Source: Asterochloris sp. CNOR1 (lineage: Eukaryota; Chlorophyta; Trebouxiophyceae; Trebouxiales; Trebouxiaceae). Taken from it: a stretch of 64,000 nt of DNA. Below, piece by piece: positions 3,101 through 62,400 of this stretch; position 1 is the stretch's first letter, and each line of letters opens with the position of its first letter. The notes under the pieces were generated by a model. That model saw only the letters and a list, made by a program, of their open reading frames with translations, ran no database searches and was not told the DNA's origin. Location of the stretch: positions 3,348,001-3,412,000 of the forward strand of contig OZ017750.1 in assembly GCA_963969365.1 (NCBI GenBank), given 5' to 3'. Both the position numbers and the translations under genes were made by a program.

Positions 3101-6100
3101 GGAGCCGCGCAAGAGGGGGTGGACCCCTTTGCAGAGCTGGCCATGAGCGCCAGGAGCAGCGTGGCAGGTGCGTTGCCAGAGCAGGGCCCTCTGCTGCGTG
3201 CCCGGAAGCTGTGCTGTGGGCGAGACTGTGCTGGATACCTTCAATCGTCAGACCAGTCCTGGTGCTCGCAGCATGGCACAGCAAACAGCACTCTGTCATG
3301 CTACGCACGTGCTCATGGCACTGTTGAGGGGGGTGCTTCTGTCATGTGCAAGTCTGTGATTCATTGTGCGCATGCCGGGCGGGAGAATTGGCGAGCAGGC
3401 TTTGAGACAACACATTTGCAAAGACCAGGGCAGAAATTCCCTGCCCCTTGACCTCATAGTGAGAAATGTTGGGAAGCCCAGGTGCCACATATGCACAACA
3501 AGCATAAATTTGTACAGAGGGAAGCCTTGGTGCTACAAGCCACAGCACCGCAGACAACATTGCAACAAGTCCTGGGATGGTGGGCAGGCCCTGGCTGCTG
3601 TTGCGGCACAGCTGTGCAAGAACACTGCAGGCCGCTGGGACAGCCACATCTCACTGCAGAACTCATCCTTCCTGTTGCTGTTGTGCGCAATGCGGGAAGC
3701 GCCATTGACCCGTGATTGTCAGGTGCACTCTGTGAGTGACTTTTTATGCTGTGTAGGTGGGGATACCGCTCCCTGGTACGAGCTGGGGCGGGGGGTGTCA
3801 GGCAACCCCTTCCAGCAGTTCATGCCCCTCGACAGCTACCTATCCGGGGATGCTGCTGGTGCCATGCCAGAGGGTGGGCAGGAGGCAGAGCAGCTGGCAG
3901 CCAGCCAACCTGCTGAGGCTGCGCAGAGCCAAGAGGCAGCGCCAGCAGAGAAGGGAGCGTCCAGTGGGCGGCACGTCGCTGCTGCAGTCTCAGCTGTGGA
4001 AGCTGGAGGTGCCCGGGGGCCTCCTGCTGCACAGCAAGCGGAGCACGAGCCAGCCATCGGCTCCAGGCTGCCGACCCCGCAGCCAGGCGCCCCGCAGGCT
4101 CCGGCAGCTGAAGCGGGCCCGACAGAGGTGGCGGCGCTGCAGGCCGCTGCAGCTGCACGGAGCTCACTGCCGGAGACAGGCAGGCTGCAGGCCGCTCCCC
4201 AAGCATCCCAAGGGGCTGGTGGACCTCCGCCTGCAAGCGCGTTTGGTGAAGACAGCGCCTTTGAGGCCAGCAGCTCTTTTGAGGCCCCCACCAGCGGGGC
4301 TGACAGGCAGACCCTGCCCGAAATCTCCTTTGATGGGGCGGAGAACGCTTTTGGGGCCGGCAGCTTCCCTGCAGAGGCGACCTCCAGCAGGGCTGGAGGC
4401 CAGCCGCTGCCTCCAAGCACCTTCGGTGGCGAGGAGAGCGCCTTTGGCGCCAGCAGCTTCCCTGCAGAGGCAGCCTCCAGCAGGGCTGCCGCAGCACCTG
4501 GGCCCCCACCAGGGGAGGCTCCAGGCTCAGGGCCGTCTTCCGGCGCTTGGGAGCCAGCCGTACCGCAGGTGCCCCAAGGCCTCGGCTCTGACGCCTTTGA
4601 AGCCGAGTGGCCGTCAGAGCTGGGAGTTGGGCAGCAGAGGGTGGCCTCACCATACACCTTCAGCCAGCCCACTCTGGCTGCTGCTGGGGCTGGCCCAGCA
4701 GCAGGCCAAGCCCATGCAGGCCCTGCCGCCCAGCCGTGCTCAGCAGAGGCTGTCCATCCTGAGGCCTCTCAACCTGAGGCTTCCGGCGCAGCCCTGACGC
4801 AGCCAGGGGGTCCTCCCCAGCAGCAGCAGCAGCAAAAGGGGCTGGGCAGCCCCGTGGCTTCTGCGTCGGGCGTGGATGTCTCAAGAGCCTTTGCGCCAGG
4901 CTCCACCAACAGTGTGCGACAGCTGTCCGAGATGTTCAAGGCTGAGCAGCAGCAGCCGCCGCGGCAGGCTGCGGCCGGGCGGGGGTTAGGGCGTGGGCGG
5001 GGCCGCGGGCATTCGTTCAGTGAGGTGGACCTCTGGTTGCCCATGGACCCTGAAGAGCGCAGGCAGATGGAGGATGCATTTGAGGCTAAGGTGGGCAAGC
5101 CCACGTCATTGCCAGGTCCTCTGCCGGGGCCGAAGTGTGGCATTCGAGGCCAGGGTGTGGCTCCTAGTGTCCTGTGCGATGCCCCTGCTGGTGCAGCTTC
5201 AGTCAAAGGACGATGTCGAGGCCAGGATTGGCTGCTTACTTGTCTGCCTGTCACAGCTGAAGTCCAGGAGGTTCAAAATGCAGATGGAGGACAGCCATGG
5301 GGCGTAATGCTCTGCAGGCCTCCTGCTCGTCAGCCATGAGGCAAGAGCAGTCTTTTCACCTTGTGCTGAGCAACAGACCGAAACTATGCCTCTCCACGAC
5401 CAATACCCTTTACCTCTCGAGTGGCCTCAGGCTTTGACCGTGAGCAAGCTGAGCACCATGATTTGCGTGCCTGCCAGCTGTTGCCTCAGCCAACACTGGC
5501 TCATCCCTACCACACTACTGCTGCAGGGCTACAGCGCTGTCCGCTTCCAAAGGTCAGATGCAGATGCCCTGTGGAAGCTGCGGGCGATGCCTCCCGACCA
5601 GTTTGGGCGCGCATGGCAGCTGTCTGATGTGGACTGCGACGGCGCCCTCTCGCGGGCCGAGTTCATCCTGTTCATGTACTTTGTGGGCTCCTTCTCCCGC
5701 AAGTGAGCAACTCAGTGGGTCTCTGGTGTGCATGGCAGCTGAATATGTGGACTCGGATGGCGCCCTGTTGTTGTGGCACCCCCCCTTCCACAAGCGAAAC
5801 CTCTGGCTGTATGCTGTGTAACCTGTAGCAGATCCGGGAACGCCGTTGTGCACGATCAGTGCAAGGCCCACAGGGCACCAGGGCTCAGGTTGAGGTCATT
5901 GCCATGGCAGGTTGTGGTGGAGTCCCAGCTGTCATTCAAGCACCTAGAGGCTTGAGAGGCCTTGTGGAACAGGTGACCTCTTGGCACACACTGCAACTGC
6001 ACAGTCAGCCGCGAAACAGTGTGGGCAAGAGATGGCCTCCACCGAGCTCCATGCAGAGCAGGACTTGGCAGCATCTCAGCCTGCTCCTGGGCTGCAGTTG

Positions 6101-9100
6101 CAGCAGCGGCATACTGTTGGCAACAAGGGGCCTTCTTCAAGCTTGCTGCAGAGCAGATCTCAGCAAGTGCTCATCAGTCCCACTTGGAGAACACCTTTTC
6201 TGCCCCTGCAGGGGCCTGGACTTCCATCTTCCAGAGCAGCCACTGACGCTGGAGCAGGCAGCACGGCTGACAGGATCAGAGGGCTTCCAGGCGCCAGGTG
6301 ACACCCTGCTTCTGCTGATAGCTTTGAGCAGTTTGTCATCCCATCAACATTTTTCAATCCAAAAGCCAGAGCACAGCTGACAGGATCAGAGGGCCTCCAG
6401 GCGCCAGGTGACGCCCTGCTTCAGCTCAGCGTCTCAAATTGTTCCGCAGTGTGCTGTGGTCCAGATCTTGGAAGGCCTCAAGCTGTCAGGTGGTCCCCTG
6501 CCCCAGCTGTCAGTGGCCTGCCTATCCTTCACTTGACAGCTTTGCAAGGGCTTCTGGCGCCCTATCCAAGGGAGGCTGGCTCTGTGTGAGGCTTGTTAGG
6601 CCTGGCCTGCACTTCATGACCAACACTTCACCTTAGGTGTGGAGCGTTTGCTGTCTGGGCGCCCCTTGGCAGTGCTGCCCTTGCTGAGAGATGCCCAGCA
6701 CCGCATCCCTGCACCCTGGCGCCAGCTGCGTCCACCACCCTGCACCTCACCGCGTCTCTCACCTGAAGGGGTAAACAACAAGAAAAGAGATATATTTTTT
6801 GTGTTTTGTGTGAAGATGCTGCCTCCCTCAGCTGGGAAGGTGCCTGGCCGCAGGCAGGGCGCCCGCAGAGCCAGCTGCAGAGGAGTGGCAGGCATTCCCG
6901 GAGCAGGCGGACCTCCAAAGGGTGCGCCAGGCCACCATGCCCGTCACGGAGGCCGACACCGAGATGCAGCAGCAGGCCCTGCAGGAGCTCCTGAACCTGG
7001 GCTTCCCGCCTGTCCCAGCGCAGGTGAGGACTGCCGCAGGAGTCCCCGCTGCCTGGGCTTGATGGGGCATGCTCTGTCCTGTGTTCCCTGCCTGGCCCTG
7101 CACAACTTGAGGCACCCTGCGTGAACCTGCCCGTGGGGTCCAGAGCAAGGTGAGGCAGCCTACTTCATCCCACTCGGCTGGATCGGGCCCACAAGATCTT
7201 GGGTGAGGCATCCTCGAAGCCTGCAGCTGCTGGGGATAGCACAGCATACTGGAGGCACTGCTGCCGGTGGGCGGGAGCTCTGCCTGCAATGCTGTGCGGC
7301 ATACGGTGTGCCTCTCATGACAGCAGTGCAAGGCATCTGCGTGTTGCGCTGCACAGTTGCCTGGCCAGTGATGCTCATCATATCACAGTTTGTCTGAGAG
7401 ACTCGTTGAAGACAAAAGGTTCACAATTTTACACTGAGGCCTCCCAGCTTTGCACCCCTCATGTCAGGCCTGCAAAGCAGCACCATGCGCTGTGGATGCC
7501 ACCTGCAAGTCATCAGGGTTGCTTGCTCGTGCTGTCGGCGCCATTGCCAAAACCTCCCGTGTGAGTTCAGCAGCGCCTTCAGTCCATTGCTCCTGCCATC
7601 CATGCTGCTGTGTCATAAGGTTCGTGGCATGAACTGCACTGTATATGGTCCTGCCCCCTTGTCCTGCTCTGGGCTCACCCTACACTGCAGACCCACAGCT
7701 TGTCCTGCCCTGCAGACTGCTCTGCAGGCGCACGACTGGCAGCTCGAGGCGGCCGCCAATGCTCTGCTCAACCAGCAGCGCGGTGCGGCCGCCGGGCCTG
7801 CCCCGAGTCGCTCGGCCCCCCCAGTGCGGCCGCAGTCCCTTGGCAGCCCTGTGCTCAGGGATGCCGGCGGCAGCATGCCCAGCAGCCCTGCCAACGGCAG
7901 GTCTCCCTCCGGCAAGGGGTTGGTGCGGGTGAGTGCTGCTCTAGCAAGCCCTGTTTGGCAAGCACTTGGTCAAGAGTTCTGCATGGTGGCACCTGCTGAC
8001 GTGACTGCTCTGGGACTGTGCTGAGCTGGCTCAGTGGCAGCAGCAGCGGCGTGGCCTGCGGCCTGCCAGCAGCTGGGTTTTCCTTGGCCAGCGACCGATC
8101 CCAGCGAGCGATGCAAGGGCTTTCCTGGTGAACTGTCTCAGTCTATGCAGGATGGTGTACACTGGGCATGCCACACCTCTGCCTGCGAACTGGTCAGCAC
8201 CTTCTGTGTCACAAGGTTTTCTGGGTCTTCCAGTCAGCGCACCACTTGGTACACCGGCAAGGCCACATCCTTGCCCGCTGACTGGCTGTTTCTCTGCTGC
8301 AGTCGTCTTCTTGTTTTACAAGTGAGCACAGCATGGGGGACACCCGCAGGCCGCAGTCTGTCTGCTGACAGGTCCTTGCCGTGCTGCAGGACCTGTCTGG
8401 GTTCTCCAGTCGGCGCAGCACGGGTGACACTGGCAGCGCTCGCAGCACCCGCAGCACGCTGTCTCCCACCACCGGTGGGGTTGCTCGCCAGACCACAGGG
8501 GCCAGCACCGACTTTGACGAGCAGGGAGAGACGTCAGGTAGGTGCCTGCCATATACTCAATACTGAAGCATCACCCTCTGTCTTGCACCAGTGCTGACCT
8601 CCTGTCCCGCACCTGTGGGCGCAGCACACCTGTCTCCTACAGCCCGCCCGCCTGCTTTGTTGCTGCAACTTCACAACAGTCCCACCCATAGTCGTCTCAA
8701 GCCGACCTGCAATGCACTGTTTGCAGGGTTGCGCATCTTGCCATGAATGGCTGTAAATTTGCATGAACATGCTTTGTGCTGCTGCAAACCATGGGCACAG
8801 TCTGACAGGAGGCAGCTGTGCAGCCAGGGCATCCACACACTCATTCAGTGCTGCACATGTGCTCTACCTGCAGTTGGGGGCATGACTGTCTCGCCTGGCA
8901 GGGACTTTGGGGCCCAGGCGCGCTACGCTTTCGAGTCTCCGCAGCGCGACCCCGCCAGCAGCATGGTCGCCCGAGGTACACCTTTGCCTCTTCCACACAT
9001 CAAGTGCAGCGCTGCCCAGGATCTGTGCAGCTACCATTTGCTTGCTGCCTCAGCAGCGCCTGCTGGTCGCATTGCAACAAGGATGTCTGTATATATGTCC

Positions 9101-10324
9101 TACAGGCCCATGGCAGAGGTGCTCTGAAGCTGGGGTTGCTGCAGAAGATCTAGCCCTGCTTGCTTCCCTCACCGCGGCCTCCAGCTGTGAAGTCCACTTC
9201 CTTTGCTTGGCCTGTAGGGTGACACTGTGCTTTGCAAAAACTTCAGCCAGATGCTAGTCAGCACCGGGACTGTCTGCTCATGCGCAAGCACTGTGCCCAG
9301 CTCGCTGTGCTCTGCAGGTTATGTGACTAGTGGGGGCTGCCGCCATCAGCATGCCCCCTGCTCTGCAGGAGACTCCAAGCTGACCATTGGCATCACAGCT
9401 GCCCGCATGAAGTACACAGGTATCATGGAGCGTCCCTTCTTCACTGTCTCCCTGCGCACGCAGCGGGGCCAGCTCATTGAGCCGGCTCACAATACGTTGC
9501 CAGCTCTGTGGGATGGCAAAAATAACGTATTGAAGGCTGGGGACGTGCTTGCCCTCAGCACCCCCGTGCGCAGCCTGCCAGACGGTGAGTGCAGGGTCCT
9601 GGCCTGGCACCAGGCTGCCTGAACGACTGGCCTGAGCAGGCTGCCAGTACCAGCTTTGCTGCGTGCTTGCAGCAAGCGTCTGGGCAGGCTGCCTGCGTGA
9701 TGGCACCTCGGGCCCGCTGCAGACAGCCCGGCCTGCTGCAGGCAGCCAGCTCTGCAGGGGAAGTGCTGCGCCCACTGTGGCAGCCTGCTGTGGGGTCACT
9801 CACAGCAGCCTGCGCTGCTTACATGCGCACCGTGGCCTCTCATGCCTTGGTTAGGTAGCCTGCTGAGCGCTGGACTTGAGTCCATCTACTTTCAAAGTCA
9901 CATTGCACCTGGCATCTGCCTACATTTCCTTAGCCCAGATCGCTATTTATTCTCATGCCTGCTGCAGGCAGCCTGCTGTGCATCAAGTGTGTCCACACTG
10001 TGCTCAGGGTCTGCCTTCTGCGTGTTGTCAATCAAGAACCTACGCTTACTCAATTAGCTTCTTTGCTATGCTGCAGGCAGCCTGCTGTACTTTGAGCTCA
10101 AGCACTACAAGCCCAAAGAGAAGAAGATGAGCCTGCGAGCCTGGTCTGTGCTGGCAGCTGAAACCTTGGTGGACTACAGCGCTGAGGAGCCCAGCGTGCA
10201 TGTTGGGCCACTGCACCTCTCCCTCCTACAGAAGCCCGTGGATTTTGCTCAGTCCCGCAAGCACAAGCGGCTGACTAATGAGGGCCTAGATCTGGACCTT
10301 CTGATTGGCGTCATGCAGTCGTGA
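138..10324 (+). CDS. Eps15-like EH/UBA protein with C-terminal Aida-type C2 domain (5' end outside window)
   Basis: Multi-exon gene; the first visible exon follows a gtgatgcag acceptor at 137 and reads in frame to a donor at 1411, so the true start lies left of the window. Exons I can support: 138-1410, about 1600-1682, 2031-2270, about 2541-2725, about 3013-3170, about 3757-5090, 5530-5702, 6211-6299, about 6850-7023, 7716-7928, 8393-8539, about 8902-8975, 9370-9583 and 10080-10324. The long N-terminal part is low-complexity with repeats (P-x-S-x-FGSS; KNVLPPKSSFAADEVQ). Near 3013 come three DPF motifs, known in Eps15 to bind the AP-2 ear, then an NPF near 3800. A split EH domain follows (ERRQMEDAF ... 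DVDCDGALSRAEF), then a UBA-like helix set (ALQELLNLGF ... LEAAANALL). The end matches the C2 domain of AIDA (LYFELKHYKPKEKK, KPVDFAQSRKHKRL). I infer a membrane or endocytic adaptor. Domain order is firm; some middle exon edges are approximate. Confidence 0.8.
731..1120 (+). repeat. In-frame coding minisatellite, four 111-base units
   Basis: Four copies start near 733, 843, 954 and 1065, each encoding about 37 residues around the core KNVLPPKSSFAADEVQ. The period is a multiple of three, so copy-number change keeps the frame. The fourth unit is the most diverged (ESSLVAEEVQ). Confidence 0.9.
6261..6422 (+). repeat. Tandem duplication of an exon 3' edge with its splice donor
   Basis: Bases 6261-6312 and 6371-6422 are almost identical (a few substitutions) at exactly 110 bases spacing. 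The first copy spans the end of an exon of the EH/C2 gene (ending QAP) and its gtgaca donor; the second lies in the following intron and still carries a donor-like cag|gtgacg. Confidence 0.9.
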
Positions 10325-10756: not shown

Positions 10757-13700
10757 CTAGGTGGGCACCAGCACAGCTCGCTGTCCGGCTCGTTGCCTGT
10801 CCTGAGTGCGCACTGATGTCTCTAGGGCTAACAAGTACTCCTGCTCAATGTCACCTGTGACATACTGGCCTGCAAGGCAGTAAGTGCCTTCAGTGATTGG
10901 ATCTTGAACAGCCTAGACACCACGTCCACGCAAAGCGGCAGAGGGCCAACAGTGCTGGTACACAGACGGGTCTGGCACAGCTCACCTGTGAAGCAAGATG
11001 CCTCAAACTGCTTGACATTGGGATTTAACTCCTGAGCAACTGCGAACAGGTCCTGGATGCTCTGGTACAGCAGCCCGTCTGCATGCAGCACCTGCAAGAC
11101 CAGCGACCAAGTCAGCTTAGCAGCTAGATTTACTGCACCAAAAACAGCATAGAGCTGGCCGCAAGTGCATTGGCCGCATGCATTGGGAGTGGCACCAGTG
11201 GTAGCTCAGGTCACATCTGCCTGCATGACTGCCAGCAGGGCTTGGTGCCGCTTAACAGGGGTTGTCGAGCCTAGGAGGCCTGTACCTGGCAGATCTCAGG
11301 CTCCGTAAGGTCTGCTGCTACAAATTCCTTGCGGGTCGGCATGTCCACCCCATACACATTGGGGAATCGCACGGGGGGAGAGGCACTGGCCAGGTACACC
11401 TGCACACAACAATCACCAATGTGAAGGGGGCTTATTCTCCATACTGCAAGCAAATCTGACGACAATGCCTTGGAAAATGCAGCAAAAGGTGTGCACTGCA
11501 GCTCATACAGAACACAGAGGCGATGCTCACCTTCTTGGCGCCTGCCTTGCGCACCATGTCCACAATTTGGCTCATGGTGGTCCCCCGCACGATGCTGTCA
11601 TCCACCAGCAGCACGCTCTTGCCCTCGAATACGGCAGGCATTGCGTTGAGCTTGCGACGCACAGACAGCTCTCGCGTGCGCTGGTCCGGCATGATGAATG
11701 TGCGACCCACATACCTGCAAACAATGTAAATTGAGTCAGCCAGCTACATGGTAAAGCTCTGTCCTGCTGTTCGAAAAGATTAGCAGGGCACAACAGGGCA
11801 CATGCCAGGCAGTTTTGTCAGACGGGGATCAGCTGCTAACAGCCGCCACATTTCGTGCTTGCAGCGACTTGTATAGTGGCGAGAGGCAGCAGGCAGGGCA
11901 GCCCACCTGTTCTTGACCAGGCCCTCCCGGTAAGGCAGCCCCAGCTCTGCACTGATCTGGATGGCTGCCGGCCGTGACCCGTCAGGCACAGGCACCACAC
12001 AGTCGATGTCCCAGTCCGTCTCCCTGCATCAACACAGCTGGGAGAATTGTGCCGGCCATCAAATTGAGACACTGCATGTTATACCCTTAGGGGCACAATC
12101 ATTGATCCCATGGCGACAGCGGAGAAGTCAAGGGGGCAAGTAGGTCACTTGCTGGAGCTCTACAAATTCAACAGATATGCCTAGCCCAGCCTGCCTTCAG
12201 CAGTGCTGAGGGCCCTGGACACAATCAGTGACAAGGCTCTGGGACACAGCCAACGATGACGTGCAGCACACCATCCAAATGCAGTTCATAGCAGGGCCCA
12301 CCTGATGCGCTTTGCCAGGCGCGTGCCCAGCCCCAGCTGGAAGTTGTAGACTGAGATGTCGTTGAGCACGGTGTCGGGGCGTGACAAGTAGATATACTCG
12401 AAGATGCAAGGGCACAGCTGTGGGCGGGGGTGGCACTGCTGCGATATGAGCTCCCCTACAGGTGCAGCAGGCGACTCATGAGAGACAGATGCAGCAGATG
12501 CTTTCAGGGATACAGAGGCACAGCTCGGCGCAGGGTTGGCAACTGCTCTGAAACATGCGCATGAAGGGGCAGCCAAAACTTGTGAGAGACAGCGGTGGTT
12601 GTCACATACCATGCTGCATTCACATCTTGTGCGGGCAGCAATGCTAAGGATCACTGTGGTGACCATGGTGAGAAGGCACGATGCCCGTCAGCACTGGCTG
12701 GAGCCTGAGCTCAAGCTGGGAGGGATGGCACCCACCCCACCTGACTCTGTGACCACAATCATCTCCCCTGGCCGCACGTCGCGGACGCGCTCAAACCCGA
12801 TGGGGCCAAAGGCGCAGTCCTCAGAGGCCACGCACCACTCATCACCCCCAGGGCCTGCGCGCCTGCCCAGCACCAGCGGCCTGCACTTGTTGCATGGGAG
12901 ATGCAGCCTTCAGCATGCCAGACTTGGACAGGAGAAGCTGGCGGCCCCTATGCTCAGACACAAAGAAGCAGCAGGACTGGGGCTTTGCCGCAGCACTGGG
13001 AGAGACTCTGCAGGTTCTGTCAGATGGCGCAAGCCAGTGTTGTATGATGCCAGTCCCGACCTGATGCCGTAGGGGTCCCTGAAAGCGACCAGGCCCACGC
13101 CCCCAATGAGGCAGATGCAGCTGTAGGCCCCCTGCAGCAGCTGCATGCTGGCGGCCCCTGCCTGGAGAACCAGGTCCATCTTGCACATGTTGGGGTCGCA
13201 CCCCTCAGCTGTGGTGCAGCGCTGGTGGGCACGGTGGATCTCGTCTGCCAGCACATTCAGCAGCACCTGCATCGAGACGGACGGGGCTCAGCATGGCAGG
13301 CTGATCGGGAATAGGCATGTACGGTGAGCTGCACCTGCACTCAAAATCAGCGGCGCATGGCTGAGCTCGGGGCGAGCGCCAGACTAGCAGGACCTCAGAT
13401 CAGGTGAATGCGTTCACATGTCAGCCATCACACAAGACCTGCGCCAGGTGTCATTACTTTCAAACAAACTATGCGCTGTTCAGCAGCAACTGCACAGCAA
13501 CTGCGTGGTCAGAAGATGCACTCAGCTGTCGCAGTCAGCGGCACAGCCAGAAACGTTGTGCCATCTCCCAGGCTGCTCGACGCATATGAGGACCTGACTG
13601 CCATTGCCTTCAGGCAGAAGTGAGGCAGCCACCTGCCTGCTCTGAGAGACACCGCGGCTCAGCAAGCAGCTATAAGGCACCTACTTGCATGAACACAGGG

Positions 13701-15875: not shown

Positions 15876-17611
15876 ATGGCCCAGCGCGTTCCGGTGTCTC
15901 CCCAGCGCTCTGCAAAGCTGAGATGCAGCACCCGCCAGCTTGGAAGTGCCCTTGATGCCCATCGCCAGCCCCATCGTTCCCGGCCTCACGCAAAGGCAGT
16001 AAGTAGCCTGCTGGCTACGCAGGAAGGCAGCAGGCGCTGCACCAACATCAAGTGGCAGGAGGGAGCTGTCGAGCGCGCTGCCAAGGAGCACCTACTCAAG
16101 CAGAAGGGCTGCTGCCTGTGGTTCACAGGCCTCAGCGGATCAGGCAAATCCACAGTCGCCTGCACACTGGAGCATGCCCTTCTGCAGCGAGGCCACCTCA
16201 CATCTTTGCTTGATGGGGACAACATAAGGTGCGACACCTGGGCCTTGAGACTTGGAATCATGCGCTGGACTGGATCAGGAGATCACATCAGCAGATCACA
16301 TGGGCGTGCCACAGCGAACAAGCACATGCCCTGTCCTGCGGCCTACTGCAAGTATCACCAATGTGCACATGGAGCTGGCCTTGTGCCACAAAGCCGGTCA
16401 AGTGCCCGGCATACAGTCAGTCAGCCCGGTCTTCCCTTGTAAATCTGGCCTCTGGTCCTCCTAGGGCACAGCCTCTGCTCTGCCGCTAGTTGCCATGCTG
16501 CAAAAGCCTTTGGGCAACTCTGCAGGACCCTGGCACAGACCAATTGCTGTTTGGTGTGCATGGTCTGAGTTGCAGCTCCCTGCCACCCGGGCTCGAGCAG
16601 CGTCACTGACCCTTTTAGCCATCTCTCACGCACACTAATCTACCAAACCCTTTGCCTGCAGGCAACACCTGAACGGTGATCTGGGCTCCAGTGCAGAGAC
16701 AGAGTTCCACACCTTTTAGCCAGCGCATATCAGCCCACACTGTTGCCTGCCTGATCTGCACCCCCTGTCCGCTGCCTGCAGAACTGGAATAAGCTGCACC
16801 ATTCTGCCTGCCTGCAAAGCCATGGCTTTGACGAAGTCAGCCACCCTGGCTGCAGGCACGGCCTAAATTGCAACCTAGGCTTCAGCGCAGAGGATCGGGA
16901 AGAGAACATCAGGCGCGTGGGGGAGGTCTCAAAGCTCCTCGTCAGCTCGGGCGTCATTGTCCTGGTCAGCTGCATCAGCCCGTACCGGGCAGACCGTGAC
17001 AATGTGCGGGGGCGGCTGGGCGACTCAGACTTCATCGAGGTGGGGGTGCTGAGCCTTGCTTCTCGCGCATGCAACTGCTTTCTAGTCATCATATGCCTGT
17101 GCTGCGCTCAGTGAGAGCCATCTGTCATCTGCATGAGTGCTTGCGCAGTGCATAGTGAGCTTCAGCTGCTTGTGGTTCGCAGAGTGTCCCGATGCCAGAC
17201 TTTGCGACTGCTGGGACCACGATAACCCCCCAATCCCCTACGCCCCCGCCAGGCTCACCAGATCTGCATCAAGGAGCTTGCAGCCCAGCTATTTGCCGCC
17301 GAGCAACCAGCTTCGGACCTCCGTTGAAGCCAAGACCTGCCTGGCCGCAGCCTGGACTGAGAGCAATGCCTGCTTGACTTGCGCTGCAGATCTATATGGA
17401 GACGCCCCTGCACGTCTGCGAGGGCAGAGACCCCAAGGGCCTGTACAAGCTGGCAAGGGAGGGGAAGATTAAGAATTTCACAGGCATAGACGACCCCTAT
17501 GAGCCGCCGCCCAATCCTGAGATCGTGCTGCAGAGTCATTTGGCCGCCCCTCAGGAGATGGCCGGCAACCTGTTGTGCTATCTGCAGAAGCATGGCTACC
17601 TGGAGGCCTAA
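15876..17611 (+). CDS. Adenylylsulfate (APS) kinase, probably plastid-targeted
   Basis: Phosphorylates APS to PAPS in sulfate activation. Exons 15876-16228, 16856-17039 and 17390-17611 join in frame to 252 aa. Residues 1 to about 45 are rich in Ser, Arg, Gln and Ala with almost no acidic residues, as expected of a chloroplast transit peptide. Then come the P-loop [49 protein letters not shown], and [19 protein letters not shown] with the lid segment [11 protein letters not shown]. All landmarks of the family are intact. I chose the ATG at 15876 because upstream in-frame codons offer no other ATG. Introns of 627 and 350 bases separate the exons; the first contains a decayed copy of the exon 2 start near 16656. 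Confidence 0.95.
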
Positions 17612-18105: not shown

Positions 18106-21100
18106 CTATGTATGAGCTATTTTCATCTCTGCAAGCTTGCCACAGACCACTGCAAGCAGGGCTGAGCGTGCTCTGCCGCAGCGGCCACTATCCACCCCTG
18201 CAGACATCGAATCCACACCTTATCAGCAGCACTTCACACCAAGCTTTGCAAACACAGTGCACGCCTAGAAGGGTTGGCAACCCCACCACAGTGGCTGAAG
18301 GTGAAGCTGACGGCCAGCATGATCTTCAGGGGGTCTGAGCAGTCGCGGAACAGGACAGACTTCTTGCTGTCAAATTCGCCAGGATGCTGCTGGTAATGGT
18401 GCTCCACAGCCTTGCTGATGGCTTCCAGGACAGATGCAGGTGTAGTGTGGTCCACGAGGAACTGTACGCAGACACAGTGCAGCCTCATGTGCAATGTGGA
18501 GGCCTGAGCTCTAGATGTCACTGCAGTCAACAGGTTGGCCTGCCTGGGACGTCTGCAGCAGGACACCTGCAGTCCGTTTCCACAGCAGCAAACAAAGCAG
18601 CATGCTATTGCTGGTAGTCACAACACCAGCTGCGGCACAATGTTGCTGACCTTGAAGCGCTCGCTCTTGTTCTCAGAGCGGGAAATATTAATTACAGCAT
18701 TCTGGGACAGCTTTGCATTGGGATACCAGAGCCTGGCCCCGTCACTCCTGCAGCACAGCATTCACCACGGATGAGCAGTGTCGCAGTGGCCTTCGGGTTT
18801 CATGACAGGGCTTTGAAGATACTGGCCCACCTGCGCATCACTGTGGTCGACAGACTGATCTCCTCCACCGTGTGGGTGTCAGAGTCCACAATCAGCACAT
18901 CTCCAACCTGCACAGCATGTGCTTACCCAATGCCAGGCATGCTGAGGCTACCCAGGAGGCGTTTGCAATCTGCAACAATCTGAGGGTACAATGTGCTGCC
19001 ATGCAGGGTAAGGTCCACAACATTAAAGGTCTGACCCACATCAAAGGCGTGTATGGAAAACAGAAAGACCACACTCTCAAAGGCTGTCTTGACCGTGTTC
19101 CCTGCAAGCCAGCATCATTCCGTCATGCACCGCTGCACGTCAGCATGCATGCTGATTGTGAGCTGGGAGTTGCAAATTTTGAGAGCTGCAACACAGCAGA
19201 CTCATTACCTTGGCTGGCAGGCTCAATATTGCAGCTTCGAGCATGTCAAACATCAAGCAAAAGCCTGATGCTCTGCAAACCTTGCGCTTACCGAATACAA
19301 AGGCAAAGGCAAGCACAATGCTGCTGAAGAGAAGCCAGGTCTTCCTAATATCAACCTGAAGGCAGCACGCGGCATTGCTGATCCTGGGTAGCTTTCTGTC
19401 TAGCAGTAACGGCAGGGACTGGCACCTTTGGTGATTGCAATGCTGCTTGCTGCAGGCCTCGTGCAATGGCAGCATTCATGTCCTCCTATCTCAACTTGCA
19501 ACACAGGGCGTTGCAGTTAAGCATGCGCTGAAGTGCAGCTCACATTGAATATCAGCAGGTAGATGAAGAATCCAAGGGCCTGGAGCATTGCGCCCAGCAC
19601 AAACTGCAGGCGCCCCACAATGGTCTTGCTGTCCTTGAGCTGCAGCGACAGGTTTGTGCGCTCCCTGAAGACATTCTGCACTGCCGCCCTCACATCCTGC
19701 GGTGTAAAGGAGTGCCACTTGGTTGGACCTCACCACAGATCGACAGCAAAGCTGCCCCTGATCCGGCGGGCACCCTTCATGCTGCCATGGACGAGACTCC
19801 CTGAAGACATTGCGCACTGCTGTCATCACAATGCTGCTGTGGAGAAGACATGTCACTTGGTCGCACCCCCTCACAGGTCTCAGCCCTGACTCAGCAAGCA
19901 GCCTGCATGCTGCCAGCCAGGACAGGCACCTTAACCTCATCACGCATGTAGACACAGAAGATTGCACAGCATCAAGCAAGCAGGGAGACTGGCTGTGACC
20001 TGCAGGGTTGCGTGCCCATCCCCGTCCTCATCCAACATGGCAAAGGCCTCTGCTGCGTGCTTCTCGCTGAGCCCAAACTGCGCCAGGTCATCCTGCAGGA
20101 TGTGGTCCCTGCAGGCAAAGCACACACACCCTGCTGCAGCATGCCAGTGGAGACTGGCAGCACTGAAGGCACAGCATTGGTGGCGCCCCCTCGACAGGTT
20201 CCGACCCAACTCTGACTATAGGCTCATCCAGGCCAGGAGAAAGCTGCTCTCACAGAGCCGCGTCAGCTGAAGTTGACTGCAGGAGCCAAGAATGGCACGC
20301 AGTCATGGTCAGGCCAGACCACACCTTGTGAAGGGCTTCACATTCCAGTAGAGGTAGAATGCGAGGCGCTTGGCCTCCTTGTCGCTCGTCAGCCCGCCTG
20401 CATTCTTGGCCTGGCCCAGCTGGTCCGTCAGGGTGACAGTCAGCTTAGCCTTGCGAATGTGTTTCTCCACCTATGAAACACAGCAGATGTGCAAGCTGAT
20501 GTGAAACAGGATGAGCAGGGTGCTGTGCCTGATGCCAGCGACAATGGCCTGCACGCCATACAGAGCCTTAACCAGTCAAGCGCAGCACCCCAAAACCTAG
20601 GAGGCCCTCAGCAGGAGCAGCTGAGACAGTTGCTTCATACATGTGGCAGAGGCCAGACCACAGCGTCAAACATAAAGAATGCTACCTGATGAAGCTGCCT
20701 ACAATATGCAAGCAGCCTTCTCTGCATGGGGAGGGCGCTACACACAACTTCAAGGGCTGAGCCCACCTTGGCAATTTTCTTCGCCATCTGTTCGCCATTG
20801 ATGGCAGGGATGTCAGGAGCGGTGGAGGCCTGCACATGTGAGGGGAGGCCGAATGCTGAAGACTGTTTCATGAGCGGTATATTATCAACGCTTAGTACTC
20901 TCTGCTGAGACAAAGTGCTGTCCCCCCTCCTACCGCTTGCTGCAAGCTGCTAGAATTGGGGGCAGTATTGCCTGCAGAGCCCACCTGAATGCTGGCTGCC
21001 CGGAAGCCCCCTGATACCCTGTGAGCCATTCGCACCTTGGCCCACTTGCTGACCTTGGCTGCAGACTGCAGAGCAGAGGCATGTGTGGCATCATGGCTCT

Positions 21101-36830: not shown

Positions 36831-36909
36831 AATTCTGATGCCAGTGACATGAGTGGTCCGGAATCTGCAGAGCTTTGGCTCAAAGCCATGATCAGCCAGG
36901 CCTCTGAGG

Positions 36910-38155: not shown

Positions 38156-38178
38156 TAGATAGATAGATAGATAGAAAG
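38156..38178. repeat. (TAGA)n microsatellite
   Basis: About five and a half tandem TAGA units ending in a single interruption (gaaa), just before possible minus-strand exons. Confidence 0.9.
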
Positions 38179-38179
38179 A

Positions 38180-38830: not shown

Positions 38831-39158
38831 GAGGCCTTGAGGTTCCTGCTCAATGTCAGATGCTGCAAAATTCTGTGCTTACGGATGATAGAGCTGACCA
38901 GAGAGCCCATGCGCACAGCATGGCTGGCCAAAAAGTGACAACCAGGGCTGGCCTGATCAGCGCAGTGAAGCACAGCTTGGCCAACCCCAATGCCATGATG
39001 CTGACTCTATGTGACCCGGCCCTGATGCTGGTTCTGCGTGCAAAATCAGAAATGGAGCAAGGCCGCGTGGAGTACGGACTGGAAGTCCTGATTTGAGATA
39101 CACATGCGTACGCTATCTCCGAAGCTGTTACTCTGCTCAGATTCCGTTGACTGGTGGG

Positions 39159-39167
39159 TTAGGGTTT
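39159..39167 (-). promoter_or_regulatory. Telo-box-like motif upstream of the PfkB kinase
   Basis: The plus strand reads TTAGGGTTT, the complement of the plant telo-box AAACCCTAA, about 100 bases before the start codon at 39270. Telo-boxes are known in plant promoters of growth-related genes; a role here is inference from one copy. Confidence 0.35.
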
Positions 39168-39269
39168 ACGAATTCTCCTGCATCACCTTCACAACCCAGT
39201 CGCCCTCAGCTCTGATCAGTTTCGAAGTCTGCTAGATGCAATTGAGGGCCAGCAACACCTCAAGCTGAC

Positions 39270-41246: not shown

Positions 41247-41466
41247 ATTCATCAACGGCCACACTTTACTTTTGTTTACTTGCCCACCCTACCCATATGA
41301 GTGGCACTCAACGCAGACCATCTTCCATCCACAGCCCGCTGACTTCCCAGTGGAGGACTCTGCCTGTCCAACACCCCCTGGCTGCATGCTGTATGTAGCC
41401 AAGCCTCCTGGTTGCTCCCAGCTGGATATGCTGCCTGGCCAATGACCAGCATCCTCTTGCGGGACA

Positions 41467-50700: not shown

Positions 50701-52568
50701 TGCTTCCATGAGTGCTGCGGCCAGCTGTTCGGTGGCCATGCATGTAGCGTTCCCAGAAAGCATCGTATGGGCCTGTATCTCTGGCTGGAAAGTGCTGCAT
50801 GAGGGTGGTGGTGGCACCAAGTGCTGCCTCCTGCGGGTTGCTGGACCACATGTGTTGACTTTAATCCATTAACAAGCATGAGGGCTGCAGCTCCTTCATC
50901 ATTGGTGGTGCAGGCCTGAGCTTCAGCAGCAAGCCAGCCCAGCAGGCACCGCAGGGTGCCGCAGCTCCTGAGCCCTTCCCCCAGCAGCAGCCCGTGGGTG
51001 GGAATGAGATCTGGCAGCAGCCTGGGCAGGGACACTCTGCTGCAGGTGAGGCTGCAGCAGCTTGTCGGGGTGCGTCCACCTGACACCAGCTGTGTCATGC
51101 CTGGAGCACGACTAGCTTGCTCGGGCAGCATTTAAGACGTCTGCTCTCTCAGCCGCAGCAGCAGCAACGCCTGTGAAGCATGGGAGCGTGACAGGAGGCA
51201 GACGGCAGCAGCAGCTGCAGGTGTGCTTGCATGGCAGAAGCTGCTGGGGCAGGTGCAGGTGGCAGCATGTGAGGCAGGAGACGCTGCTGGTCTCCAGCTT
51301 TGGGTCAGCAGCAGTAGCATGCTGGGCAGCAAGGTCTGTGGTTCGTGAGGCAGCAGCTCATGGCACCTGTCTATGTGCATGCTGCGAGTGGGGCCTGTGA
51401 AGCTTTTGTCGGGAGGTGGGATTCTGGGGCAGGGTGAGCATGCCACTTGCAGCACGATCTGCATCATACAGGGCCAGCAGCATCATTCTTGGCCAATGCC
51501 AGCCCCACTGCCACACTGCACAGGCAGCTCTCAGACAGAGCATCCCGCCAATTCTTGAGGCATTGCCTGGGCATTTTCTGCGCTCGCAATCAAGCTGCAG
51601 CATTGCAGAATTGCTCCTTCTGAGCAAATACCAGCCTCGCTGCCTCTCAGCACAAGCAGCTTCCAGGTAGAGCTTCTTGCCAACTCTCAAGTCAGTGCCT
51701 GGGCAGTGCCTGGGCAGGCACTTGCAAGTAAGTTTTCAGCACCCCATACGCAGCTTTGTTGGTGCCTTCAGGTGCGAGTCAGGCAAGTGCTGGTGAAACG
51801 CTTGGGTGGCCCGCCCGCCGTGAGCACTGACTCCCTCTCTTGCACCTGCAGGTCATTAGGAACAATTGACGCGCAGTCCTTGCAATTTGCAACGTCTAGC
51901 CGGCATTGTGGCTGCTCGCAGCGTGCCCTGCCGCCAAGACTGATCCTCCTCTGCCTACGCAGGTCCAGGGCATGCAGACCTGTAGTTCACGCCAGGACTG
52001 CTGCTGCCATCTCTGTGCAGGCTCTGGGACAACTCCCACTGGCAGCACAGTGGCACAGGGCATGAGCCAGCAGGATGCCCAGGGGCTGGGATCTGCTGCC
52101 AGTGGTGCGGAGAAGGTGGTGCATGCGCAGGCTGGCAGCGGCCACGGGGGCAGTGCTGGGATTCTCGGCGCTGCTGCTGGCAGCGCACAGGGGTTTGCTG
52201 CTGCTGCTGCCGGCAGTGATTCTCGTGCGGGCGAGGCCGTCAGCCAGGCTGCCCAGGCTGCCCGCCTGACCTCTGCTGCTAAGGGCACCAAGCGCTCCAG
52301 GGAGGCTGCGGAGCCGCCCTTCACCAACAAGAGGGCCCGTCTGGCCGTGGCACCTGAACCTGGCCAGGAGGTCTGCGCGGCCAGCATTCAGGCTGGGGCC
52401 GGCGCAATGCAGTGGGAGGCCGACTCAGCAGATGCAGCAGCTGTGCTGGCGATGGGCAGCAGAGCAGCTTTGGCATTTCATGCAGCTGTGCCTGCTGCCG
52501 CTGGAAGCGAGGCCAGCCGGGGAGCAGCCCTGCCTGCTGGGCCCGGGATGCTGGAGCGGGGACAGTAG
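47740..52568 (+). CDS. Ala/Gln-rich coiled-coil protein with nuclear localisation signal
   Basis: The best exon is about 48400-49917: a Thr/Ala-rich start, then a long coiled coil (RRRERHLRQAQQELERLQAE; LRQDLQAARQQAERF) with an acidic repeat (DPSDSEADPSDSR) and a second coil (KEGLEKQVEQLADAKQAAEV). Likely flanking exons are 47745-48060, 48150-48246 (KLVRLRHIATAAAITEVQSQ), 50464-50790, 50890-51075 and 51960-52568. The last contains KGTKRSREAAEPPFTNKRAR, a bipartite nuclear localisation signal, and ends at TAG 52566. Further 5' coding near 46900-47250 (RRSKRQKTPTGKP) may belong to it. Composition is extreme (Ala, Gln, Gly) and I recognise no enzymatic domain. It could be two genes; exon joins are uncertain. 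Confidence 0.5.
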
Positions 52569-52804: not shown

Positions 52805-53280
52805 TGTGGCACCACCTATCTGATCTGGCAGGCAGTCATGCCCTGCTTTGAGAATGGTGTTGCCGCACTGGCCGGTGTTTGCCATTACACATGTTGACCG
52901 CCCTGTTTAACCCTTTCCATGTTTTGGGAGCACCAACCAAGTTCATCTGGCATCATAGCGTTGTCATGTTGCAAAGTATAGGCCGGTCCTTGAAAGAGTT
53001 GGACCATCCTGCGCTTATAGATCCTTCCCAAAACTGTCAGGCAGCTGATCTTCACTCATCTGATCTGGCAGGCCGTCATGCCTGCTTTGTGATTGGTGGT
53101 GCCGCACTGGCCATTGTTGGGCACCAGACATTTTGATGGCCCTGTTCAGATTCTCATGTTTTGGGGAGCACAAACCAAGTTGATCTGGCATAATAGCACC
53201 AGTTGTCATGTTGCAGTGTTTAGGCAGGTCCTTGAAAAGGTTGGACCATCCTGCAGCTTATAGCCCCAAACCTGAGAGGA
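52805..53280. repeat. Intergenic tandem duplication, about 240 bases
   Basis: Bases 52808-53045 and 53049-53285 are diverged direct copies. Both contain tctgatctggcaggc, tgccgcactggcc, catgttttggg, ttggaccatcctgc and cttatag in the same order. The block lies between the convergent 3' ends of the coiled-coil gene and the acetyl-CoA carboxylase gene. Confidence 0.85.
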
Positions 53281-56400: not shown

Positions 56401-59400
56401 CTCACGGTCAAACTCCTCCATGGCCTGAGCGGTCTTCAGGGCGGAGTCTGGGAACCACACCTGGCCAGCCTACACGATATCAACATCTGATCAGTGTGCT
56501 GCACAGCAACCTGGAGAAGGCTCAGCAGCAGTCTGGATGGCAGCGTTGACAACCCACATGGCTGGCTAGCCTGCAGGCAGGGGTTACAATTGAGGCTGGT
56601 CTACACAGTGGGTGCCACAGCATGCAAAGCAGGAGACAAGGGGGTGCAAGTCCATCTTGGTCTAGAGGCATAGTGCCTCAGGCAGGCTTTGTAGTATAGC
56701 TGACGCTGAGCATGCCAAGGAGGCTAGATGTGTTACTGGTGCCTCAGCAGGCAAGGACCAGCCACTCCAGTCAGTGTGTTGCAGATGTTTGACATCACCA
56801 TGCAGCTGCGGAGTGAGCGGCTTGCAGAGCACCCCCACTGACCTGTGGGATGGTGCGCTCAGCTGAGTCTGGCATGCCAGGGTCGGCAGGCACGTTCAGC
56901 ATGACTGTTTGTGTCTCCACAGCTATCACACCTGCAGCAGGCACACAAGCAGCTCAGCCTCCCAAACAGATCACCATCCGCAACTTGCACATGCCACAAA
57001 TCTTGATAGGCAGTTGCCTATCACCGGTGGCTATGTGACAGCGATTTTCCCCTCAAGGCCATTCAGTGCAGCAAGAGTCACAAACCAGCTGATCAAAAAG
57101 CACAGACCCTTAAAGGGGATACACGTAGTGAATGGTCACTCATGAAACAAGACACTTCAGGCTGCTGCAGCCACCTGGCGATATAACTTGCAGGGGCCAT
57201 CTCACCGCAGGGGGTGCCTCCCAGCCGAGCCCGTCCCGTCACAACGCTGCGGGCCCACCCGGCGTGCACCTCAGTCCAGCTGTCCCGGTCAAACAGGCCG
57301 CTGCGCCAGTCCCCTGACTGGCTCTGGCCGGCAGTTGGGCGACTGGAGGCGTTGTCAAAAGGGGAGGGCTGTGCCTGGACAAAAATGCCGGCGATGGCCG
57401 CCCGCGGGTCCAGCTTCTCACCTGAAGGACAGCAGCAGGTGAGCATGACACTAGAGTCACAGGGCAAGAGGCCCCAACACGAGACAGTCACACACAACTG
57501 GAATCTTGCTCCCCTGTGCCTCTGTGCTCTGCAGAACAGCTCTGGGAGCCCCAGACCTGATGGCAAGCTGCCAGTCATCAGTAAAATTCAGCACAAAGCA
57601 TAAGCTGGCAGGCCAGCCTGGCAATGTGCACCCTGGCACAACCACAGTGGCCCCAAGCACCTGAAGTGCATCAGCAAGTGGGCAGGAGAAGCAATCATCA
57701 TTGCATTTTTTATGCAGATTATTGAGGGAGGCAAACTCCTCAACCAAGCTTGCCCTCCTGTGACTCCGCGCCCTGCAGCTCAGCTCTAGGAGCCCAAGAC
57801 GTGGCGGCAGGCCACTAGCTTTGACTTCTTTAATCTCTTTGTGTCTGTGAGTGCAGTTCAGCACACAGCACTGGCTGGTGGCCCAATCCTGAAGTGCGCA
57901 GGCTGGCACAACCGTGGCGGCCCCAAACTTCCTCTACTGGGCTCCAGCGCTGGTGCACCCTTTGGACCTGCCGACGATAGCAATGGCCTTATGGATTGTC
58001 ACGTGCTGCAGGAATGACCAGCCTTACATGCAAACTTTATCAGCCTCCACCGCTGCTGCACTCCCAGGGCCTGCGTGTGGCTGCCAATGGCCACTGCGCT
58101 ATCGCTGATTGTGGCAGGACTCACCAGCTGCAGGTGCATACTGAATCAGCCGCGCCTCCGGATCCCGGCTGGGCAGCAGGGGAGCTATTGCAGAGGTGCT
58201 GGGCGGCACATAGCTGAGCCACCTAAGAACAGCAGCCACGCCGGCCAGGTCGTCTGGCACAACCTGGTGGCTGACCCCGTTCACACCCATGACCTGCAGC
58301 AGCGCAAACAGCAGCTGGGCCAAGCAAATGCATTTGAGAGTCCTGCAGTTGGGGGTGCCTTCCATCCACCCACAGTCTCAGGGCTGCAAGAGATTTCTGC
58401 ATCACAGTCCAGCATGGACAAGAGCCACAGCACCTGACAGGCAGAGGGTGGGCACCAGCATGCGGCAAGCTTATCAGGATTCAGACGTCAAACAACAGCT
58501 TCTTTCCCTCTGGACAACCTCTGAGAGCAGCCCGCACCTTGGGGCCTCCCAGCTGCAGGTGGGAGCTGTACACATCTCGGCCCAGCAGCTTATTGAGGGC
58601 AGAGTAGCCCGTCAGAATGATGGGCTGGTCAGCCCTCTGAATGCACCTGCAGCGCACACTTGCAGCAGTCAACACAGACATGTGCAGGGCGGGGCACTGC
58701 AAGCAAGGTCCTCTGTACCTAGCTGTCCGAGCACCCTCATTGCGCACGATGCCCAATAATGGAGCCTGACGCCCACAGCACGCGTGTACTTCCTGCCAAA
58801 GTGGTTCAGACAGATGAAGGCATGTCAGAGCCTTGCCACCCTGATAGCAGAGCGCAGCAAACTAGTAGTTCACCTGCGGCCCAGACGCGCCAGGTAGGCG
58901 CCAATGCCCACGCTCCTGCCGCTGACGAGGGTGAGGGTGAAGCCCTCACGGAAGGCCCGCGCGTAGGCGCTGCACAGCACAGGCTCTGCTCTCAGGAGTG
59001 GTGGAGCATGCGGCCAGTCACGCAGGGCTCCCCCTGCCCAAGGTGGGGTGGGGAAGGGTCGCACAGACACTGCACAGGAAAGCCGCTGTCGTCAGAAGGA
59101 CATCAAGAGCTAAGTACACACAGACTCCTTCCGGCTGAGATGAGACGCAGTGGCAGTTTCAGTACAGGGAGCTGAAGTGGGGGTGTTGAAGGGGCGTGCA
59201 TGGCTGACCACTCTCACAAGCCTGTCAGGGCTGTGGCACGCGCGGCTGCCCTCCTCACCTGTCTCTTATCAGTAGCACCAGCAGTGGCAGGGCAAGCTGC
59301 TGCTGGCAGCCCACCTTGCAGTGGGCCCACCCGACTCATGCACCCCCTGCCAGCATATCCTACGCTCTCATAGCATCAGTTCCAGCATGCTAGCCCACTG

Positions 59401-62400
59401 TGTTGCTGGCAGCCCCCCTGGCCATTGTCACGCTGCTGCTCAGTCACTCCACCTGCAGCCCACCTCTTGCCCACCCCAACATCACACCAGCAGTGGCCAG
59501 CCCATCCTGGCTCTGGGAGCCCACCTGGCAATGGCGCCGCTGCCGCTCAGGCACTCCACCCCAAGCCCATCCTCCGCCCCCACAACATCAGTCAGCTGCC
59601 ACCGCTTCTGGCCCTCAGCCTGCAGGGGCTGCGCCCGCAGAGTCGCGCTGCCTGTGCCCTGCGTGAGGGCCCTGTAGTCTGCATCTGACAGGTAGAGGTA
59701 CTTGAACCCCTTGCTGGGGTCATTGGCCTGCACCCACTCCACCTGCAAGCCCAGTGAATTTCTTGAAGGCCTACATCTGGGCACAGCTACCGCATGCAAG
59801 ACGCATGATTAGACGCACCACATAAAAACTGAGGCAAAGGCTGCACTGCATTCAGAGGGGCTAAGCCACTTTCATAGCCGATGTGCAAGTGGTACAACTG
59901 GCAGAGCCGCCAGGCATCAGCTGTTGCTTGAGCATGGGATAGGGGCATGTGCAGCCAAGTAGCTGCCTAAGCAGGGCCAGCACAATACTGCCCATGCACA
60001 CCAAGCAAGGGTGTGCACTCTTGGGGTTATTGGCTGCCATGTACAACCAAGCATCCACAGGCTGCGTTGTCACAAAAGGAACAGCAATGCAATGCCCACC
60101 TGCAGGCACTGCTTGACCTCAGCCGCCAGCCCCACACGGGCCCCAGAGTTGGCAGCCAGGTAGACGATGGGCAGCTCGTGCTGCAGCGCGTGCTCAGTGG
60201 CAGCCCTGAAAATAGCGTCCTCGCGAGGCCCAAAGGCCCCAGAGTTGTACGTGATGTCGTTGGCAATCGCAATCACCTGCCAAAGGTTCAGTATGGGGTC
60301 GCATTGTCGAAACAAACTTGTGGGATGTGCAGCTTTGAGGAGACAGAAGTATCTAGGCTGCCAGAGCCCTCAGCAGAGGGCGACTTGGAGACGGTCCAAG
60401 GGGAAGGCTGGTGTGGCATGCGGTCTAGCTGAACCGAGCTGTCTGGCACAGCCAGAGCACAATGAGCCCTGCTGGTTGGCCTGCACTGGGTGCAGGAGGC
60501 TGGCCCGCCTCTGGAGCAAGTTGACAATGCTGTGCGCAATGGCAGCTGGTTGCCCCAGTGGTGGCCAGAACAGAGCAAGCAGAGGCAGTACTGGCAGTCT
60601 GAACATTTGACAGCAACTGGCCCACCTGACGGCCCTCAGGGCACTCGGGAGTGCGCAGCACCATGTGCCAGGCCACAATGCCCACATCATTCTGCCCCAT
60701 GGGGCGCTGCAGGGGCCGCAGCGCAGCCGGCAAACGGAATGACCCATCAGGGCCCATTACCAGCTCCTGTGTTTCCACCAGGCGAGCTGCAGCAGGAACA
60801 CATTTGTAGCCAAAATGGTGTCAAGACAAACCAAGCGTGTTGCAGCTTGTGTGACAGAGGGAAACCCTTACTTGGTGTGCAAAGCAAGTGTTGCATGAGC
60901 TTTTGTCCTCTCTGCTTGGGGACTGCACAGCAAGGACAGCTCAGTACTTTATCTTACAACTAAATACTTGTGCTTGGAAGGACATATGATACCAACACTA
61001 CACATGGGAGGGGATATGACATCCCCCAGGTATCCAGAGACTTTGGGGGCGCCCCACCTGGCATGATGCTCTGTGGCTCCCCAGCAGCCGCACGCGCGTC
61101 CCAGATCTCACGCAGCGCGTTCTCAAACACGCGCGGGAAGTCATAGCAGAAGGTGGTTTTGTGCAGGCGGGCAGCCAAGCGCTTCTGCTGCAGGTGCTCC
61201 AAGGGGCCGTAGACACTCAGCAGGGACTGGCCGTGTAGGGGCCCTGCTGAGGGCTGCCCGGCATGGACTGAGCTGTACACCTGGGGGGTATCGTCTGCTC
61301 CTTCCTGATATACTTGCACATCCTCCTCTCCACTCTCATGGCCTGCACAGGTGCAATTGGCACAGACTTGGCAAAGCTGGCTGGCTGGTGGTTTACCTGT
61401 GGAGGCTCATGGGCTGTTGGGGCACAGATATCGTTTCCAACACAAAGGTCTGGTGTCAAGGCCTAGGCAGGAGGCCACTTGCAGCCTGCAGCTACAGCAA
61501 GAGCCTCCACACAGCCCCCAGACATTGAACCGTAAGGCTCACTATGCCTTTCAGCTGGAGCTTGTGCCATCTCTATCCAGCTGCCGGTGTTACAGCTTTC
61601 AAGGACATTGACGAGCAGAGCTGTTGCTGGTAGCCCAGGCTCCTCACCTGTGGGGAGTGAGACCACCACATGGCAGGCAGCCCCTCACCTGTGGGGGATG
61701 ACCCCACCACACGCCAGGCTGGTGCCCCGCCGCCTGCCCTGAAGCGCACTTCCCACTGCGCCACCGCAGCCTGCCGCAGCGTGCTGCCATGGCGGGACAT
61801 GATGGCTGCCCCCGCAGCCCGCAGGGCACCTGCAAGATGTCACGCACCCAACTCAAGACCTAGAAAAGGAGGTGTCGAAGTGTAGCCACCTAGGAAAGAA
61901 GGTGTCCAGATGTACCTCTCCTTGACAGATTTGTACTCACCTCTACATATCACATGACCTTTACGAGCTGCAGGGATGGCTGAGCCTTGGCAAAGCCCAC
62001 AACTCAAGGAGAAACAAACGCTGTAAGGGTCCTCTGCAACAAAATAGGCTGGTGCACATGGCTGTATCTCGGCTGACAATTCTGATGGCATCCCACCTGC
62101 GATGTGCTCTTCCTGTTTGCCAGCATTCAGTGGCAGCGGAGGGAGCACTGAAAGGAAGAGGTGAGCCCAGTCTGGCCGCACGCTGCTGTCCCGGCCTGTC
62201 CCTGCACAGGTCGTGGGAAGCTCTCAGCACCTAGCAGAGCAGCAGCTTGGGCAGGCCAATTCAATTCTGGGCCCTGCCAGCCATGCACTGCAAGGTCTGC
62301 TTTGGCACAAATGAGCCCCACTGTTTCAGGCCCTCCACGCAGCAGGTGCTCGGCCTCTGCAGAGGGACATGAAGAGCTCAGGTGCATGGGTTGAGCTGCT

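Follow-up and report, generated by a model that had tools for sequence, protein, structure and literature searches.

The window, the whole 64,000-nucleotide stretch analyzed here (contig OZ017750.1, positions 3,348,001 to 3,412,000), comes from the green alga Asterochloris sp. CNOR1, whose genome assembly holds 56,383,464 bases in 21 contigs. In several of its genes an intron contains a diverged copy of the edge of a neighboring exon, often with the splice site. Asterochloris is a lichen alga whose published genome is described as 56 Mb in size, its ~10,000 genes carrying 9 introns each (PMC6652019). Our sample of 264 kb comprised the window and 20 regions of 10 kb each from contigs 1 to 3. 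Introns were predicted, from sequence only, by a gene finder self-trained on the sample (455 training introns, with a median length of 273 nucleotides, nt). The splice consensus obtained was very strong, CAG/GTGAGC at the donor and CTGCAG/G at the acceptor (slash, exon border). The hexamer CTGCAG was over-represented in the sample, with 449 occurrences against 313 expected in introns, 268 against 167 in exons, and 62 against 47 in intergenic DNA.

Pfam matches were obtained for five gene models of the window, or parts of them: purF (glutamine amidotransferase and phosphoribosyltransferase), Aida_C2, APS kinase, an MscS channel, and GPI2 with a Zeta-toxin-like domain. The purF model was 100% identical to a database protein, jgi/Astpho2, across 91% of its length; that label probably denotes Asterochloris glomerata. 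The names carboxylase and PfkB lie outside this set and are labels from a preliminary description of the window. Two models are weak, in that PfkB was poorly modeled and the start of APS kinase was missed. Model G5 (28007-42582) carries both a GPI2-like and a Zeta-toxin-like P-loop domain; here the gene finder has probably merged two genes and overlooked PfkB between them.

The clearest array of copies lies on the forward strand in the EH/Aida_C2 gene. The 3' edge of an exon ending at 6297, with its donor (6260..6316), is 93% identical over 57 nt to a first intronic copy at 6370..6426, which lies at an offset of 110, has its GT intact, and has a matching copy in a close relative. A second, more decayed intronic copy, at 6464..6508, scored z 4.5 against the copy at 6370 and z 2.3 (p 0.027) against the exon edge. 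The same gene contains an exon segment, 5611-5648, with an intronic copy at 5730-5766 (5611..5766, forward strand; offset, 119; 84% identity); an acceptor-edge array that runs up to the exon start at 8390 (8157..8445, forward strand; spacing, ~90); a short acceptor-edge copy, 9960-9979, which matches 10069-10088 at 20/20 nt (9960..10088, forward strand; offset, 109); and a weaker donor edge, 2175/2390, at an offset of 215. The preliminary description had claimed five cases in this gene; of its cases, those at 5611, 6260, 8157, and 9960 were found again, with the weaker donor edge 2175/2390 in addition. The pairs at 5611 and 9960 passed the scan described below but fell outside the set of edges at p≤0.005.

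Copies in five further genes had also been described, and those in four of them were recovered. An APS kinase acceptor edge, 16843-16892, has an upstream copy at 16647-16698 (16647..16892, forward strand; offset, 194-196), which was under the strict threshold of the scan. On the reverse strand, the channel gene has an acceptor edge at 19661-19741 and a copy at 19797-19879 (19661..19879; offset, 136). Also on the reverse strand, the donor edge of the so-called carboxylase gene is followed by two tandem intronic copies (59276..59592; spacing, 105 and 105), the pair 59382/59487 aligning at 105-107. The gene at 32-36 kb, again on the reverse strand, proved to hold an array, with an acceptor edge at 32820-32861 and copies at 33019-33058, 33144-33185, and 33277-33315 (32820..33315; spacings, 198, 126, and 132). 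For the copy claimed in PfkB, we obtained short weak matches only (scores of 27 to 29; lags of 31, 51, and 285-287). Five window cases, all on the reverse strand, had gone undescribed: the purF acceptor edge 12403-12468 with a copy at 12509-12573 (12403..12573; offset, 106), donor edge 28980-29030 with a copy at 28855-28904 (28855..29030; offset, 125), donor edge 35661-35728 with a copy at 35412-35479 (35412..35728; offset, 249), a weak acceptor edge and copy, 56428/56527 (56428..56575; offset, 99; z 3.3), and donor edge 61680-61719 with an abutting copy at 61639-61678 (61639..61719; offset, 41). Twelve distinct edges reached p≤0.005 among the 96 introns tested in the window, where about 1 was expected.

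A gapped scan of the 264 kb at lags up to 600, in which pairs from one array are counted more than once, identified 87 local direct repeat pairs, compared with ~3.7 in far-lag bands, which offer slightly fewer positions. Of these pairs, 46 linked an exon, or its edge, with the intron next to it; 22 were intron-intron, 14 were exon-exon, 4 touched intergenic DNA, and 1 was unclear. The excess was also evident from ungapped segments scored in the window without gene models (lags, 20 to 600; score, ≥18), which numbered 27, or 0.046 per lag against 0.0006 at far lags; the 20 other regions gave 71 against ~4 expected at the far-lag rate. When exon edges were compared with their own introns at a score of ≥32, 48 of 870 tests matched, against 0.2 for length-matched random introns and 0 for shuffled introns (those >900 nt were reversed rather than shuffled). 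Searching by exon sequence alone recovered 22 copies of acceptors and 21 of donors; one random pairing gave none of either. An internal TGCAG was followed by at least 10/15 nt of the intron's own exon start in 31 of 958 instances (1.8 expected), and 8 of 142 donor-like internal sites matched their own exon (0.8 expected). Exon-edge matches were present in 15 of the 20 regions outside the window, and 38 of 435 sampled introns carried copies at a score of ≥36. These analyses confirmed that exon-edge copies in introns are real and extend beyond the window.

The introns with copies were also longer, with a median of 527 nt for the 38 against 271 nt for the rest of the 435, a comparison in which longer introns also give more room for matches. 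The earlier proposal that introns are enlarged through local duplication was supported, the process being seen also in most of the 20 other regions. Restriction to introns was not supported, since pairs occurred in intergenic DNA (3 in 27 kb) as well as inside introns (22 in 156 kb), the sample being small.

Orientation was overwhelmingly direct, with 85 direct and 2 inverted pairs; the inverted scan kept just the best segment of each antidiagonal and so gives a minimum, and the direct count takes in coding tandem repeats and neighboring lags of a single repeat. Both kinds of edge were involved, 19 donors and 27 acceptors. Among 37 loci, 25 had two copies and 12 had three or four. The distance from the center of a copy to its own edge had quartiles of 96, 119, and 162 nt (48 cases). 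Lags of exon-intron pairs spanned 41 to 455, with 30 of 46 between 67 and 147, and 33 of 50 spacings between neighboring copies fell between 79 and 146. The spacing is thus broader than the roughly 110-130 bases described previously, with a broad mode instead of a sharp step. Lags of <65 nt accounted for 1 of 46 pairs at exon edges but 7 of 22 inside introns (p 0.001), a deficit that would reflect selection against competing splice sites; the long side of the distribution would reflect the size spectrum of the duplications. Together, the two would produce a broad peak around 110 that needs no special step. The spacer itself was repeated beside the copy in 13 of 45 spaced pairs, where ~2 were expected, some of them owing to a further copy inside the spacer. 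Abutting copies, in which the whole unit is duplicated, were seen at 59276-59592, at 61639-61719, and in the relative's counterpart of the 6260 array, whereas most pairs of higher identity showed no such duplication.

Comparison with a close relative, suggested in the preliminary description, revealed one acceptor edge that differs in copy number and an array that is shared at another exon. A protein search with part of EH/Aida_C2 yielded P0121, which is translated without splicing from a 180,759-base contig of the relative; it spans exon 9369-9584 and parts of both flanking introns, still alignable. The acceptor edge at 9250..9372 (forward strand) is present in two copies in P0121, with a copy-to-copy score of 65 against a shuffled maximum of 40; a second copy of this edge was sought in the window and none was found (p 0.79). 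This difference may reflect either gain in the relative or loss in the lineage of the window. A search with the frame across exon 6212-6297 returned P0123, from a contig of that same length, and P0122, which is 99% identical to the window. In P0123 the exon edge is followed by two more copies at steps of 38 and 33 residues (by hand count, equal to 114 and 99 nt), and the first repeat aligns over 35 amino acids, spacer included; the window counterpart comprises the three copies at 6260, 6370, and 6464. Because the array in P0123 is tandem and includes its spacer, we read the 6260 locus as a former tandem array, most likely one that later lost its spacer similarity. Unspliced algal translations in the protein database, such as P0121 and P0123, preserve intron sequence and can be used for intron comparison without DNA.

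We consider it probable that short tandem duplications across splice junctions leave exon-edge copies behind in growing introns. The excess, the direct orientation, the arrays, the lack of coding constraint (see below), and the difference from the relative are direct observations; the steps that follow are conditional. Short tandem duplications, mostly ~80 to 150 bp and up to ~350 bp, would arise genome-wide, and those internal to exons would mostly be purged unless the frame were kept. Duplications within introns or across an exon-intron border would be tolerated, the latter because splicing would keep to the original outer site (the first donor or the last acceptor) and leave the protein unchanged; only the outer site would be used. 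A spare piece of exon with its splice site would then be trapped in the lengthened intron, free to mutate, and some units would reduplicate into arrays of three or four. Deletions, together with faster decay between intron copies, would leave the exon-derived part as the sole recognizable piece. The likely molecular source would be staggered breaks that are filled in and end-joined, or else slippage during replication.

Several results weigh against this interpretation. We simulated tandem duplications and their later decay forward in time, for donor edges only and at rates that we chose, and compared the pairs with the outcome. Pairs of ≥85% identity (n=10) aligned over a median of 0.21 of the lag, with 10/10 below 0.6, compared with 0.95 to 1.0 and 7 to 32% below 0.6 in the simulation. 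Pairs of 80 to 85% (n=16) filled 0.33 of the lag (simulated, 0.76 to 0.97), and pairs of 65 to 80% (n=20) filled 0.66 (simulated, 0.83 to 0.86). Similarity at intron nt 7 to 20 past the splice site was 0.37, with 9 of 30 cases at ≥0.5, whereas the simulation gave 0.46 to 0.63 and 47 to 72% (exon identity, 0.70 to 0.90). Exon-edge pairs were in excess, 46 of 68 against 28.9 under uniform placement (95% range, 22 to 36). Identity was no lower in intron than in exon columns (0.810 and 0.808), although two freely evolving copies should differ more. Finally, a second copy of the spacer of the 6260 array was sought in the window, and none was visible (p 0.80). Many of these pairs, though not all, are short and could be islands of older units, and we tentatively attribute the exon-edge excess to slower decay of the exon copy. 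Faster loss of similarity between intron sequences, frequent deletion, and detection effects may lie behind these misfits. Not every pair is so far accounted for by tandem duplication alone.

A rather unlikely but serious alternative is local templated insertion, in which a break in an intron is repaired by copying 25 to 100 nt from 50 to 300 bp away in the same orientation, so that the spacer is never duplicated. This would suit the higher-identity pairs, most of which show no spacer duplication, and for insertions in rice, a review mentions copies, partly tandem or nontandem, drawn from within 200 bp of a break (PMC7407515). Snap-back copying should also yield inverted copies, however, yet direct pairs outnumbered inverted ones by 85 to 2, and 12 of 37 loci are arrays. 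We weigh templated insertion lower because at the 6260 array, the one array where a relative can be read, the whole unit is tandem.

It is more doubtful still that duplications favor splice junctions as their ends or sources, being generated by a route tied to transcription or splicing rather than by random tandem duplication. The exon-edge excess, and a drop in similarity past the splice consensus that is faster than simulated, point in this direction, and the divergence, which may lie mostly in the copy, could be a further pointer. Such a route, if real, might for example involve R-loop breakage or copying that is error-prone from the start. Copying from spliced mRNA or cDNA was rejected: the sequence past the copy is unlike the next exon (identity of 0.15 to 0.45 in 16 donor and 14 acceptor cases).

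We regard it as very improbable that the copies are functional, as alternative or decoy exons or splice sites under selection. AG was kept in 22 of 25 acceptor copies of the pair set, positions -5 to -1 were 95% identical, and similarity tended to stop near the splice consensus, all of which might suggest such a role. Among 30 copies found by exon similarity alone, however, the splice dinucleotide was retained in just 17 (8 of 14 acceptors and 9 of 16 donors), which is close to the neutral-decay prediction at 84% identity, so the higher AG figure is at least partly an effect of alignment. Selection on the copied AG was accordingly discarded, the proportion falling from 22/25 to 8/14. The copies show no clear coding constraint, as they differ from the exon at 18.3% of 0-fold, 16.8% of 2-fold, and 24.7% of 4-fold sites; offsets were unenriched for multiples of 3 (11 of 41), and the intervening segments had a stop in at least one frame in 40 of 41 cases and in all three in 17 of 41. 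In the 264-kb sample, G to A was the most frequent exon-to-copy change as read on the coding strand (75 of 351), with C to T at 36.

The idea that the copies travel with introners (mobile intron-making elements) or with some other dispersed repeat draws on nothing beyond the repeat structure itself and has a negligible probability, as the copies match their own neighbor and not other introns, and 3 of 3 queries (two spacers and one whole exon plus intron) matched only themselves in the 56-Mb genome, in a search that skips very common words. Chance similarity through shared splice motifs and GC-rich composition, to which the abundance of CTGCAG in introns (449 against 313) might lend some credit, is just as improbable and is refuted for the whole set by the near absence of matches from random introns, shuffled introns, and far lags, although the single weak cases at 9960 and in PfkB could be due to chance.

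Intron gain had been offered alongside intron growth in the preliminary description, and here it found no support. Among 391 introns examined for birth by duplication (≥12/20 nt), sequences one intron length apart showed no excess similarity, with 1 case against 0.8 expected and 0 against 1.2.

Vaughn and Bennetzen reportedly described short tandem-duplication insertions in rice in 2014. A 2007 paper by Zhuo et al. is reported to concern human introns arising from tandem arrays. As for minisatellite-like arrays, at least three copies were present at 12 of 37 loci described here and two copies at 25 of 37. Insertions in rice, as outlined in a review, are 10 to 1,000 bp long, tandem or partly tandem, and local, with staggered nicks and end joining proposed as their source (PMC7407515). 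The copies in Asterochloris are likewise local and direct, with lags of 41 to 455 within that size range; unlike the rice set, which consists of insertions genome-wide, they are a decayed record at splice junctions, for which the repair route is inferred. Tandem duplications that depend on CST/Pol alpha-primase in mouse cells are reported to be small, direct, and derived from induced overhangs of ~43 to 50 bases (PMC8355091); direct orientation is common to both systems, whereas spacings in the alga are mostly 79 to 146. In the potato RdRp gene, a tandem duplication copied exon and splice signals, and an 83-bp duplication within an intron is also reported (PMC4974935), whereas in our sample existing introns grow and the signature of intron gain is absent. 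For novel intron positions in Drosophila, sliding or a tandem duplication carrying a proto-splice site has been invoked (PMC2891723); here, in contrast, the trace of duplication is readable in about 1 in 10 sampled introns.

Break repair is thus already known to produce short tandem duplications in plants and mammals, and new introns are known to arise through tandem duplication. In the literature surveyed, cases at splice junctions are single, or their footprint is possibly lost, and the titles and abstract beginnings covered contained no report of exon-edge copies in introns of this alga. What is new here is the density, with readable exon-edge copies in about one-tenth of sampled introns, a figure from this alga alone, together with the difference from the relative. 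Intron lengthening is usually inferred, since its traces fade, and 38 of 435 sampled introns retain them. Extrapolated to ~10,000 genes at 9 introns apiece (PMC6652019), this would mean several thousand natural cases. With these, the size, age, and rate of duplications could be tested directly, as could the spliceosome's handling of near-copy splice sites ~100 nt away, the genome serving as a readable record of intron growth.

Repeats elsewhere in the window include an intron-internal tandem array at 23850..24120 (reverse strand; spacing, 99 and 107), a second intron-internal array at 28301..28625 (reverse strand; spacing, ~73), and an intron-internal pair at 51483..51705 (forward strand; lag, 132). 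The intron-internal pairs at 57502..57926 (reverse strand; lags, 244 and 270) are perhaps one event with an indel. An intergenic tandem duplication at 52818..53263, to which no strand is assigned, has a unit of ~240 nt and is 82% identical. Coding sequence contains tandem repeats as well: the EH/Aida_C2 model has ~3.5 copies of a 37-amino-acid (111-nt) unit at 716-1123, and further coding repeats occur at 330-586 (69 nt) and 49340-49492 (75 nt).

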